A DNA stretch of 33,594 nucleotides, taken from contig JAICQE010000021.1 in NCBI GenBank assembly GCA_025938035.1, forward strand, positions 1 through 33,594, written 5' to 3'. The translations under genes and the position numbers were made by a program. The DNA comes from Vicinamibacteria bacterium (GTDB lineage: Bacteria; Acidobacteriota; Vicinamibacteria; Vicinamibacterales; UBA2999). The notes under the pieces are model-generated. The model did no database searches and was not told where the DNA came from. It saw nothing but the letters and a program-made list of their open reading frames with translations. Shown piece after piece: positions 381 to 32,538 of the stretch (positions are counted from its first letter, which is position 1; the number at the start of each line of letters is the position of its first letter).

Positions 381-429
381 GATTTCCGATCGTTGATTTG
401 TGATTGGCTGGTGAATGGTGATTGGGATC
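381..429. repeat. Heptad-periodic tract upstream of mreB
   Basis: Units of seven bases starting mostly with GATT or TGGT (GATTTCC, GATCGTT, GATTTGT, GATTGGC, TGGTGAA, TGGTGAT) fill the gap between mreB and the GGDEF gene. The reverse complement of the tract before clpP (32480-32538) contains closely similar strings, including GATTTGTGATT and GTGAATGGYGATTGG, so both belong to one family in opposite orientations. Function unknown. Confidence 0.7.
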
Positions 430-1534
430 ACAACTCACTAACCGCAAATGCTTGTATCCCGTTCTTGCCGGACGCCTTCACCCGGTACATGGCCGCGTCC
501 GCCGCTCGTAGTAATTCTTCGGCCGATCCGGCCGAATCCGGCAGAGTGGCCACCCCAATGGACACCGTTAAATGCACCGAAAGGCCGTCCGAGGCCAGGA
601 ATTGAGCCGCGCCCACCCGCTCCCGGATGCGCGCCGCCACCGAAAATGCGCCGTCCCGGCCGGTATCCGGCAGAATCAGGGCGAATTCGTCCCCCCCGAA
701 CCGCGCCACGATGTCGGTCTCCCGGGCGCAACCGCGGACGATGGCGGCCGTTTCGGCGAGCGCCTTGCTCCCGGCCAGGTGGCCGTGGTTGTCGTTGACC
801 GTCTTGAACCCGTCCAGGTCGAGGAACAGCAGCGACAGCGGGCGGCCGTGGCGCGAGGCCCGTTTGGTCTCGCGGCGGAGCGCCTGGTTGAGGTAACGGC
901 TGTTGTAGAGCCGGGTCAGGTCGTCGGTCACCGACAAGGCCTCCGCTTTCTGCAGGGCGGTTGCGTTATCGAGGGCAATGGCGGCGGGCTCGAGCACCGT
1001 GCGGACGGCGGCCACCAGCGCCGCGCCCAGCGCCGGGGCGGCTTTCGATGGAACCGGGTCAAGGCCGACGAGCGCCCCGACCGTCTTGTGACGGCATATC
1101 AGGGGAAACGCGATGGCCGTCCCGGCGGCCCCGGGCGTGGCCCGGGAGTCCTTCGTCAGGTCGCGGGACGCGAACTCGACGCCGTGGCGGAACACCCAGT
1201 TTGCCGATGTCCAGAGCGACGGGCCGAGGCTCGGCGTCAGTCCGACATCGGCCAACACGTTCAACTGCCCGTTGGTGTCGTGGGCGACGACCGCCCAGCA
1301 TGGCGCCGGCAGCCAGTCGTGCGCCTGGCGGACGAGCCAGTCGGCAATCTTCTTCGGGTCCAGCGACTCGTTGGATTCCCGGACGGATTCAACGATGGCG
1401 TCCCGATGGTCGAGGCGGGCGCGGAGAGCGCGGATGCGCCCCTTGAGCCGGGCCGCGAAATCGGCCCGCCGGCCGCCGCGCGAACCGCGGGACGCGACGT
1501 GAAGCTTCGAGGAAATCGGTTTCACCGATGGCAA
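428..1534 (-). CDS. GAF-GGDEF diguanylate cyclase
   Basis: Predicted cytoplasmic enzyme making the second messenger c-di-GMP from two GTP. Of 368 residues, 1-50 are basic and Arg-rich, about 56-190 resemble a GAF-type sensor (VVAHDTNGQLNVLADVG, IAFPLICRHKTVGALVG), and 200-365 form the GGDEF domain. The active-site loop is an intact GGDEF at 280-284 (RFGGDEFALILP), preceded by LFLDLDGFKTVNDNHGH. An inhibitory I-site RETD sits at 271-274, the canonical five residues before GGDEF, so product inhibition is expected. No membrane segment is seen. The start is uncertain: TTG at 1534 or GTG at 1525, neither with a good ribosome site. The gene is divergent from the foldase gene and its ligand is unknown. 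Confidence 0.92.
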   Translation of the reverse strand: MPSVKPISSKLHVASRGSRGGRRADFAARLKGRIRALRARLDHRDAIVESVRESNESLDPKKIADWLVRQAHDWLPAPCWAVVAHDTNGQLNVLADVGLTPSLGPSLWTSANWVFRHGVEFASRDLTKDSRATPGAAGTAIAFPLICRHKTVGALVGLDPVPSKAAPALGAALVAAVRTVLEPAAIALDNATALQKAEALSVTDDLTRLYNSRYLNQALRRETKRASRHGRPLSLLFLDLDGFKTVNDNHGHLAGSKALAETAAIVRGCARETDIVARFGGDEFALILPDTGRDGAFSVAARIRERVGAAQFLASDGLSVHLTVSIGVATLPDSAGSAEELLRAADAAMYRVKASGKNGIQAFAVSEL

Positions 1535-1587
1535 CGGAAGGCGGTGCTGCTCGGCGACGCCGCTCAGCGCGCTAAGTCCTTATAGGT

Positions 1588-1615
1588 GTACCAAATATAC
1601 CACCTTTCATGGTAC
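1588..1615. promoter_or_regulatory. Inverted repeat between divergent GGDEF and ppiD-like genes
   Basis: The relatively AT-rich 110-bp divergent region contains GTACCA (1588-1593) and its exact inverse TGGTAC (1610-1615) separated by 16 bases. The overlapping GGTGTA/TACCACC pair is imperfectly inverted. This is where a promoter or operator is expected, but no convincing -35/-10 pair was identified. Confidence 0.25.
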
Positions 1616-1645
1616 GATGACGTTTTTCGTCGAGGGAATTCGTCC

Positions 1646-31102: not shown

Positions 31103-32377
31103 ATGAAAACCGAATTCACCGACGTCAGCGAGACCAAGAAGACCCTCACGATCGAGATCCCGAGCGACATCGTCGACGCGGAGATCAACAAGGTCGCGAA
31201 GGGCTACTCGAAGCAGGCCAAGCTGCCCGGCTTCAGGCCTGGCAAGGTTCCGGCGACGATCGTCAAGCAGCGCTTCAAGGACCAGATCCTGCACGACGTG
31301 ATGCATGGCCTGATTCCTCGTGCGGTCGAGGAGGCGCTGCAGGAGCGCGGCATCGAGCCTGTGGACACCCCCAACATCAAGGACGTCGTGCTCGAAGAGG
31401 GACAGCCGCTGAAATTCACGGCAGCGGTTGAAACCGTTCCGGCGTTCGATCCCGGCGACCTCGGTACGCTGTCGGCGACGCGTCCGTCGGCTGCGATCAC
31501 CGACGACGCGGTCGAGCAGATGCTGCAACGGCTGCGCGAACGGTCGGCGAAGTTCGAGCCCGTTGAAGGCCGCGCCATCGCCGAGGGCGACACCGCCGTT
31601 CTGGATATCGATCGCAAGGATGCAGACAGCGACGCCGACCGTCATGAGAACGTGTCGATCGAAATCGGCGGGCCGGCGAACCCGCCGGGCTTCGACGCCA
31701 ACCTCGTCGGACTCGCGGCCGGAGACGACAAGACCTTCACGATCCACTTCCCCGCTGACTATGCCGTCAAGGAGATGGCCGACACCGACGTCATGTACTC
31801 CGTCAAGGTCAAGGACGTTCGCCGCAAGGTGCTGCCGGAGCTTGACGATGAGTTTGCAAAGGACCTGGGGGCCTTTGACTCGCTGGCAGCGTTGCGCGAC
31901 AAGATCCGCGCGGATCTCGAAGAGGAGGCACGCGAGAGCGCAACTCGACAGGTGCGCTCCACGATCCTGAAGCAGCTGTCCGACCGGGTCACCTTCGACC
32001 TTCCGACGTCCCTTGTCGAGCGAGAGATCGATCGCCGGCTCGAGGAGTTCGCCCGCCAGTTGATGCAGCAGAACGTGGACCCGAGGCAGGCCGGCATCGA
32101 CTGGGCCCAGTTCCGGGAAGCTCAGCGGGATCCGGCGCGGGCGGCCGTCGCCAGCGCCCTGGCGCTGGACGAGATCGCCCGGCGCGAAAACATTACGGTT
32201 GCGGCCGAAGATGTCGATAAGGAGATTGAACGGTTTGCCGCCCGGGCCGGCCGGACGCCGGCGGCCCTGCGCGCCCAGCTGGAGAAGGAAGGGGGCGTGG
32301 CGCGGCTCTACGCCGGGTTACGCCGGGAGAAGGCGGTTGACTTGGCGCTGACGCGTGCTACTATCACCGACGAGTAG
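31103..32377 (+). CDS. tig: Trigger factor
   Basis: Ribosome-associated chaperone and prolyl isomerase, 424 residues, close to the usual 430. The N-terminal ribosome-binding domain includes LPGFRPGKVP (41-50), the GFRxGKxP signature that docks on L23. The FKBP-like domain follows at about 145-230 (EGDTAVLDIDRK, EIGGPANPPGFDANLVGLAAGDDKTFTIHFP), shorter and less canonical than in E. coli. The helical C-terminal chaperone domain (ELDDEFAKDLGAFDSLAALRDKIR) completes it. ATG 31103 is used rather than the codon at 31085, because the family starts MKTEFTDVSETKK. The order tig-clpP-clpX is widely conserved. Confidence 0.96.
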   Translation: MKTEFTDVSETKKTLTIEIPSDIVDAEINKVAKGYSKQAKLPGFRPGKVPATIVKQRFKDQILHDVMHGLIPRAVEEALQERGIEPVDTPNIKDVVLEEGQPLKFTAAVETVPAFDPGDLGTLSATRPSAAITDDAVEQMLQRLRERSAKFEPVEGRAIAEGDTAVLDIDRKDADSDADRHENVSIEIGGPANPPGFDANLVGLAAGDDKTFTIHFPADYAVKEMADTDVMYSVKVKDVRRKVLPELDDEFAKDLGAFDSLAALRDKIRADLEEEARESATRQVRSTILKQLSDRVTFDLPTSLVEREIDRRLEEFARQLMQQNVDPRQAGIDWAQFREAQRDPARAAVASALALDEIARRENITVAAEDVDKEIERFAARAGRTPAALRAQLEKEGGVARLYAGLRREKAVDLALTRATITDE

Positions 32378-32445
32378 CCCGCCGAACCCGTTGACGAACA
32401 ATGATTTGCGTCACGCAGCTGGTCCGGGCGCTTCCGGCTTGAGAC

Positions 32446-32472
32446 GTAGCCTCCGCTTTAAGGCGGAAGCCA
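32446..32472. repeat. REP-like palindrome downstream of tig
   Basis: TCCGCTTTAAGGCGGA (32452-32467) is palindromic apart from one G-T pair, flanked by GTAGCC and AGCCAC. It lies in the 161-bp gap between tig and clpP. It lacks a T-run, so it is not a classical terminator, and it resembles the element at 22176-22205. Confidence 0.6.
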
Positions 32473-32479
32473 CACAGTC

Positions 32480-32538
32480 CACCAATCGCCATTCACGATT
32501 CGCCATACGATTCACACATCGCTAATCACAAATCGTTG
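32480..32538. repeat. Heptad-periodic tract before clpP
   Basis: The plus strand has ATTCACG, ATTCGCC, ATACG, ATTCAC and AATCACAAATCG words at about 7-base spacing. Reverse-complemented, it matches the tract before mreB (381-429). It ends at the clpP ATG and leaves no normal Shine-Dalgarno. Confidence 0.7.

Follow-up and report, generated by a model that had tools for sequence, protein, structure and literature searches.

Periodic tracts between the genes of the window

The contig JAICQE010000021.1 of a Vicinamibacteria bacterium (Acidobacteriota) was analysed over its whole length of 33,594 nucleotides, which we call the window. A preliminary description, made from the sequence alone, had listed thirteen tracts of quasi-periodic 7–9 base pair (bp) units between its genes; here we examine these tracts and their relation to two families of small genes, GxxExxY (PF13366) and PF05635, that arrays of such units enclose in other genomes. 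For each gap, the best self-match score at lags 7–9 was compared with 1000 dinucleotide shuffles of the same gap, and in the 13 gaps concerned the longest inverted run was compared with 200 shuffles each. The tracts, which keep as names the positions 381, 3661, 4509, 7053, 17721, 18904, 20150, 23551, 24763, 29818, 30849, 31023 and 32480, lie in this order at the following forward-strand coordinates, with the fraction of shuffles reaching the observed value:

394..425: weak lag-7 tract of GATT words, tandem gap separating an mreB-like gene from the next one; 26/1000, borderline
3655..3717: GGGACCA array, convergent gap between a SurA/PPIC-domain gene and a CPBP gene; lag 7, score 44, 0/1000; also reported by TRF
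4504..4543: array of the 9-mer CGAACGAnT, tandem gap from an S49 peptidase gene to a CPBP gene; lag 9, score 17, 0/1000
7050..7089: GGCCCTT array, tandem gap 5' of a sorbosone-dehydrogenase-like gene; lag 7, score 15, 0/1000; no stable fold
17717..17809: complete CACGAAG hairpin element, TTAAC-CACGAAG ... CTTCGTG-TTAC, tandem gap; inverted run 25, 0/200; fold z -7.5
18904..18941: ATTCAGA array with an inverted part at its end, tandem gap; lag 7, score 23, 0/1000; inverted run 12, 0/200
20150..20184: GGGATTT array, tandem gap; lag 7, score 22, 0/1000
23577..23600: GAAC words of the preliminary description, tandem gap; 383/1000, not above chance
24762..24829: CACGGAG hairpin element, tandem gap; lag 8, 1/1000; inverted run 16, 0/200; fold z -5.5
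29818..29851: single CTTCGCGNN array, tandem gap; lag 9, score 19, 0/1000
30846..30876: GGGCCTT array in the 3' end of a dam-like open reading frame (ORF; 29903-30886); lag 7, score 18, 0/1000
31023..31095: CACGGAG hairpin element between tRNA-Leu and tig; lag 8, score 18, 0/1000; inverted run 19, 0/200; fold z -5.4
32482..32534: AATC words, tandem gap 5' of clpP; lag 7, score 10, 6/1000

The first gene of the window is presumably mreB itself. Ten of the thirteen tracts are thus periodic at the 1% level or better; tract 17721, whose periodicity is reached by 17/1000 shuffles, stands by virtue of its hairpin, tract 381 is borderline and tract 23551 falls away. The use of several distinct words with a common 7–9 period and imperfect copies is borne out. 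The proposal that several tracts are inverted in halves and could fold holds for 17721, 18904, 24763 and 31023, and less clearly for 32480 (11/200), whereas the other eight are at chance. For the three tracts that form complete hairpins, the RNA fold z-score ranges from -5.4 to -7.5; the corresponding values are -2.8 for 18904, -0.7 for 7053 and -0.1 for 30849. The GGGNNNN arrays at 3655-3717 and 20150-20184 would by sequence allow G-quadruplexes. Room for a Shine-Dalgarno sequence is scant in some gaps, as had been noted, with tracts 4509, 18904 and 32480 ending at most ~7 bp from a start codon. The C-terminus of the dam-like methyltransferase is encoded by the heptad tract (30846-30886), so its stop codon may come from an insertion.

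The statement that twelve of the thirteen tracts lie just upstream of a gene is nearly true literally, but twelve of the gaps are tandem and that of 3661 is convergent, so each of the thirteen also follows the 3' end of a gene, and divergent gaps hold none of them. To place these observations in a wider frame we sampled three relatives, G007, G002 and G001 (about 390–400 kb each and about 1.2 Mb together; G denotes genomes, L loci and C contigs), in which genes were predicted with a bootstrapped Markov caller. Across the window and these samples (553 gaps, 106 tracts) tracts are scarcest in divergent gaps, with 12 in 115 compared to 74 in 365 tandem and 20 in 73 convergent gaps (divergent versus the rest, Fisher p 0.007, tracts being counted as if one per gap), and the proposed bias to the 5' side of genes is not upheld. 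Tracts overlap the stop codon at 24 of 114 stop sides and the start codon at 9 of 98 start sides, often because the stop lies inside the repeat word; this overlap may reflect targeting or survival. Tract edges lie within 0-5 bp at 24 stop sides against 22.7 under a placement null, and at 10 start sides, below the null value of 16.2, a null that is crude since tracts fill their gaps and that allows no overlap.

Period, element plan and dispersal in relatives

The excess of intergenic autocorrelation at lags 7–9 that the preliminary description had asked for genome-wide is present in all three sampled relatives, with peaks at 7, 8 and 9 and their multiples. Tracts that reach a self-match score of at least 14 at lags 7/8/9 number 31/3/0 in 186 gaps of G007, 12/10/6 in 154 gaps of G002 and 3/5/9 in 151 gaps of G001, compared to 0-0.2 in shuffles; coding DNA yields none at lags 7 and 8 and 0-2 at lag 9, and the remaining lags up to 13, multiples excepted, give 0-2. 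The gene caller misses small genes, and two 'tracts' of L085 are for this reason the ends of a PF05635 element. The leading words differ by genome, being GGTAGCC in G007, AATTTACG and GGGATTT in G002, and CACGAAGNN in G001. A stem score of at least 12 is reached in 50% of 62 tract gaps, in 0% of their shuffles and in 8% of 264 tract-free gaps.

The anatomy of the arrays is clearest in the CACGAAG family, in which 64 elements were parsed (three are window sequences; a few are of the 8-mer kind or partial parses). The family plan is AAC, CACGAAG-nn twice or three times, CACGAA, a loop, the mirrored arm and GTT, and the copies stand at unrelated sites. The element at 17717-17809 conforms to this AAC-[core-nn]n-loop-[nn-core']n-GTT plan, and shares with the dispersed copies in G001 and G002 even a variant third unit, but ends in TTAC rather than GTT. 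The cores are near-invariant and the linkers near-random; in the 39 elements with equal arms, each of at least three units, mirrored linkers pair at a frequency of 0.311, compared to 0.388 in shuffled arms. Near-invariant cores with near-random, non-complementary linkers indicate that sequence is kept and not pairing, and we rejected pairing as the force that conserves the CACGAAG arms. Near-identical copies occur in unrelated flanks, and two G001 copies 5 kb apart have common linkers and different flanks.

Copy number is bound to lineages: CACGAAG has 71 matches in G001, 36 in G002, 2 in G018 and none in G007 and G019, and AATTTACG has 69 in G002, 2 in G025 and none in G015. The hairpin at 31023..31095 has dispersed relatives in 5 of 7 genomes, and the 8-mer CACNGAGN words look like members of the same superfamily as CACGAAG. 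A CCACNRAG... pattern is present in 72 of 247 Acidobacteriota genomes, with up to 256 arms in one and 0-4 in reversed-pattern controls; it occurs as 68 arms in a genome labelled Sumerlaeota and is absent from 5 of 9 genomes from other loci. A universal polarity with the G-rich arm first was considered and rejected, as 36 inverted pairs comprise 23 with G>C in the 5' arm, 9 with C>G and 4 even; read by eye, polarity seems fixed per word and is reversed in G251.

Three further observations concern the arrangement of copies. In G002, palindromes of the form GTAGTGCCGGGC... are nested inside a AGAACCGGTTTCATAACC...GGTTATGAAACC element in many copies (L100:12249-12688, L101:918-1441 and others), and the loops of CACNGAG hairpins at L318 and L322 (G077) hold arrays or stems of other words, as if elements nest. 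In G001 and G002 a number of the closest-matching pairs of intergenic repeats fall in a single 20-kb stretch or in neighbouring ones, a pattern that hints at local copying.

These features bear on the slippage-driven origin that had been left open, in which the polymerase slips by about 7–9 nucleotides and builds heptad-to-nonad repeats where selection is weak, that is, between genes. Such slippage would suit the confinement of the period to 7–9 and the almost perfect GGGACCA tract, and two heptad papers offer a polymerase-contact idea (PMC4692102; PMC4679880). It does not suit the inverted partners seen in half of the tract gaps, the same words at dozens of unrelated sites, the fixed polarity and free linkers within one array, nor the genes between arrays and the empty sites described below. 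Slippage may lengthen arrays; as a whole account, opposed as it already is by word-specific dispersal and gene-bearing copies, we regard it as unlikely.

The 14 trigger-factor loci nearest to that of the window are 56-75% identical to it (13 labelled Acidobacteriota; L011, Acidimicrobiia). In orthologous gaps of relatives the place recurs and the word differs. Between tRNA-Leu and tig, where the window has its CACGGAG hairpin, L014 has a CACAGAG hairpin and L001 GTTCC words, and in L011 AATC words immediately precede tig; no tract is present in several relatives, and L009 is masked there. The clpP-upstream gaps of L003, L005 and L009 hold AATC-word arrays, as in the window. The gap between clpX and the next gene, which we take to be lon, holds a hairpin in each of G005, G006, G040 and G052, with a different word each time, a one-word array in G002 and a non-periodic palindrome in G018, and most others have no marked tract. 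Nearby, a near-perfect non-periodic hairpin (AAACCGGGTTTAATTTTCG ... GAAAATTAAACCCGGTTT) lies at 33145-33197 of the window, between clpP and clpX, and the same gap of L009 and L202 has related AAACCGGGTT/AACCCGGTTT arms.

Hairpins of differing words in one gap are what would be expected if functional RNA hairpins (terminators, insulators or translational controls) were selected between tandem genes with the word left free, and the low fold energies and the overlap with stop codons fit the same idea. Against it, cores at unrelated loci agree in sequence, pairing between mirrored linkers is below that in shuffled arms, and tracts are missing from the same gap in several relatives. We therefore give this explanation little credence for the tracts in general; single copies may have acquired such a function.

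Small genes between inverted arrays

A GxxExxY-like ORF lies between inverted CACN arrays in both G077 and G064, and the GxxExxY genes of gene-bearing relatives match TIGR04256/PF13366. Matching inverted arrays lie on both sides of the gene at 18 of 22 PF13366 loci (22 of 26 matches, the other four being fragments) and at 26 of 28 further loci, 44 of 50 altogether, compared to 15 of 234 control genes and 1.4% of 280 shuffled flanks. The words vary by locus and include CACAGAGN, CACGAAGNN, CACCGAG, CGCAGAG, CGCGAAGA, ACACGAATT, ATTAACAAG and GCGGATGCG. PF05635 genes are flanked likewise at 25 of 30 loci, drawn from 61 matches, mostly by heptads (GGTAGCC, GGGATTA, GTTGTCA, CAGTGGG, GGCAGCG). Of the 44 recovered GxxExxY ORFs, 36 carry the D...ExK motif of PD-(D/E)XK nucleases. 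At G002:C48, given the ATG chosen as start, the left array would encode the protein N-terminus MNHEGHEDHEDHEGHE.

Some of these flanking words resemble those of the window. ATTCAGA-type words flank PF05635 genes in Trichormus, Scytonema and Aulosira, GGGATTY/A words do so in G040:C70 and G006:C68, and a CGCGAAG array, comparable to the CTTCGCGNN array at 29818..29851, flanks a GxxExxY gene in G243:C689. TTGTCAG arrays also occur in Acidobacteriota relatives (L120:3658-3730, L085:3251-3743), in G007 around a PF05635 gene. We take TTGTCAG to be the STRR2 word of the cyanobacterial short tandemly repeated repetitive (STRR) sequences, which were reportedly described by Mazel in 1990.

The word tracks the similarity of the GxxExxY protein: over 41 of the 44 flanked loci (without L355, L364 and L429), the overlap of array words correlates with protein identity (Spearman 0.53, 0/1000 permutations), a correlation that would arise from recognition and equally from the joint inheritance of gene and array as a single unit. 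Among the 247 Acidobacteriota genomes, 60 have both CACNRAG arrays and PF13366, 12 the array only, 25 the gene only and 150 neither, with kinship uncorrected.

The same arrangement is found on plasmids, where 18 loci were obtained from 38 hit records (14 PF05635 and 4 GxxExxY). Arrays are present at 17 of the 18, including all 14 with PF05635, compared to 1.1% of 180 shuffles. The hosts are ten cyanobacterial genera, Gemmatirosa, Bacteroides, Bernardetia and Sphingomonas; the Trichormus and Scytonema loci are 97% alike, so the 18 are not all independent. The element genes split gene pairs such as fabD/fabG; on Anabaena and Pseudanabaena plasmids (L443, L450) PF05635 genes lie between cas6 and cas4.

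Comparison of near-identical plasmids reveals empty sites. The Trichormus plasmid and that of Nostoc linckia (98.3% identity) differ by one 428-bp insertion, which starts at the upstream stop codon and has GTAAT on both sides, and in Nostoc 53789 a segment of 506 bp is inserted at an overlapping stop/start. Comparisons of Calothrix, Nostoc C052 and Aulosira agree with empty sites, with less exact edges. The pair of Trichormus and Nostoc C052 was rejected as an empty site, because a portion of the element is matched in the C052 plasmid. The plasmid PF05635 elements thus have the empty sites expected of a transposon or a miniature inverted-repeat transposable element (MITE). A GxxExxY gene in Bacteroides finegoldii separates radA from a FAD gene, and the two are adjacent in a 72%-identical Parabacteroides plasmid, a comparison of gene adjacency only.

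Two rival accounts meet this evidence. The first, proposed for Geobacter metallireducens in PMC2700814, would have the tracts be binding sites of a nucleoid or global regulator of the IHF/HU type, kept because they are bound; a conserved core with a free linker of fixed length does resemble an iterated binding site, and the sites are paired and inverted. The patchy, genome-specific bursts and words, the arrays bracketing PF13366 and PF05635 genes, and the presence or absence of whole elements speak against it and make it a distinctly improbable explanation. The second would have the tracts be repetitive extragenic palindromic (REP) elements moved by RAYT (Y1_Tnp) transposases. The tracts include dispersed intergenic palindromes, PF01797 genes occur in 7 of 7 relatives searched, and REP-like palindromes also occur; in the fetched flanks of 17 PF01797 loci, an intergenic periodic tract was found at one (two counting L225, where it lies in a called coding region). 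RAYT was accordingly rejected as the mover, and we consider this origin very unlikely. A short palindrome with a REP look, GTAGCCTCCGCTTTAAGGCGGAAGCC, adjoins the AATC tract upstream of clpP at 32441-32472; it seems to bear the GTAG tag, a feature of REP sequences.

Probable gene-less copies and their relation to known repeats

Taken together, these results suggest, with a probability that we put at about 0.7, that the tracts of the window are gene-less, MITE-like copies, formed of the terminal arrays, of small insertion elements. A full-length element would measure about 400-600 bp and consist of a direct-repeat array, one small gene and an inverted copy of the array, each array unit having a conserved core and 1-3 free nucleotides, which would set the period at 7, 8 or 9. 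The gene would be of one of two types. GxxExxY genes (PF13366, PD-(D/E)XK nuclease-like) would often come with CACNRAG or CGCNRAG words of 8 or 9 bases, and genes for the four-helix-bundle protein known from 23S rRNA intervening sequences (PF05635) for the most part with heptads. Gene-less copies would remain as facing arrays that form a hairpin or as a single leftover array, intergenic, poor in divergent promoter gaps and often overlapping a stop codon. If every word is a separate element lineage, the period would be common and the word not. We infer that the protein may bind its own iterated array and drive insertion or copying, that gene-less copies may be moved in trans, and that the linkers may be unread spacers between binding cores.

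Several results weigh against this reading. The PF05635 protein does not follow its word significantly over all 25 flanked loci (0.117, 63/1000 permutations). PF13366 is missing from 12 of the 72 array-positive genomes, which are drafts, and 5 of these have at least 5 arms. None of the 29 window ORFs scanned represents a gene-bearing copy, and none of the places listed for G002 showed a AATTTACG copy with a gene. Only one of four widely spaced inverted array pairs in the window and the sampled 1.2 Mb encloses a PF05635 gene. The gene-flanking words of the same genome explain, as exact 7-mers, 15 of 38 tracts in G007, 8 of 26 in G001 and 1 of 31 in G002, and words from foreign genomes explain tracts equally well. 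The GxxExxY gene of the Sphingomonas plasmid has an array on one side only, and the direct repeats at the two clean insertions differ in length, 5 and 3 bp, and may not be consistent target duplications. Because matches come too readily once a 7-mer may be rotated and may carry one mismatch, assignment of the window 7-mer tracts to PF05635 by word alone is unsafe; their membership would be based on period, position and type of word, and not on a copy with its gene in the genome concerned.

The preliminary description knew of no matching report, a view that the Geobacter metallireducens genome corrects. Its repeat classes 1–3, termed 'putative global regulator binding sites' and read as IHF/HU sites, come nearest of all published descriptions found and are the same kind of thing, as inverted pairs of tandem 7- or 8-mers at 16-48 sites per class; a GGGACCG element is also described, the consensus sequences TCTCCGTS[Y] and MTYCTGA fit words that occur in the window, and the available text reports no gene between the arrays (PMC2700814).

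The suggested kinship with cyanobacterial STRR repeats, a heptanucleotide class of simple sequence repeats, is supported, as the window has tandem intergenic heptads; its 8- and 9-mers go beyond that class. The GGGNATC heptads of Xanthomonas and Nostoc are intergenic and under-represented between divergent genes (PMC4692102), and the TAACTGA heptads of Beggiatoaceae are intergenic and near start codons (PMC4679880). In the text available, STRR, GGGNATC and TAACTGA repeats are like the present tracts in being intergenic heptads, some of them inverted, and differ in that each is presented as one word, with neither an element nor a gene attached. On this comparison, the single-word repeats of cyanobacteria, Xanthomonas, Beggiatoaceae and Geobacter may be of the same class.

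The intervening sequences (IVS) of 23S rRNA, for example in Coxiella and Leptospira, are elements of ~430 bp with a PF05635 protein (S23, or IVP) between terminal inverted repeats, and their mobility has been suspected (PMC4990558). IVS are also characterised by excision from the RNA by RNase III. Gene-bearing relatives of our tracts share this arrangement (25 of 30 genomic and 14 of 14 plasmid loci), unlike the scanned ORFs of the window. In contrast to the IVS, the present elements are intergenic, the window tracts and plasmid loci lying between protein or tRNA genes rather than in 23S rRNA, and they have iterated 7–9-mer ends, many gene-less copies and many words. MITEs and REPINs are similar as short, non-coding, dispersed hairpins with lineage bursts; they differ in that our elements end in iterated arrays, the gene of full copies is outside known transposase families and there is no link to RAYT. 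GxxExxY proteins (PF13366, TIGR04256) correspond to the gene of the 8/9-mer elements, and in the literature searched no mobile-element role was found for them. Within the same search, which left most subscription journals outside, we found nothing linking GxxExxY or PF05635 genes to such arrays, nor anything joining the Geobacter classes, the heptad papers and the rRNA IVS.

A broader proposal, which we offer tentatively and with the odds somewhat against it, is that these elements form a cross-phylum class of mobile DNA, until now unrecognised. Its ends would be iterated binding arrays of 7–9 nucleotides and its sole gene a four-helix-bundle or GxxExxY nuclease-like protein, with no known transposase, each protein lineage reading its own word. 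Most bacterial intergenic heptad-to-nonad repeats (STRR, GGGNATC, TAACTGA) would then be gene-less copies, and the ends of translated genes would be the target of insertion, perhaps via RNA or transcription.

The direct prediction is that the protein binds its flanking word. If true, the repeat puzzles of cyanobacteria, Xanthomonas, Beggiatoaceae and Geobacter would be tied to two widespread families of small proteins, PF13366 and PF05635. Both families would gain a testable role, there would be a hint as to why heptads dominate bacterial intergenic repeats, and the elements could offer a possible route for the spread of 23S rRNA intervening sequences.

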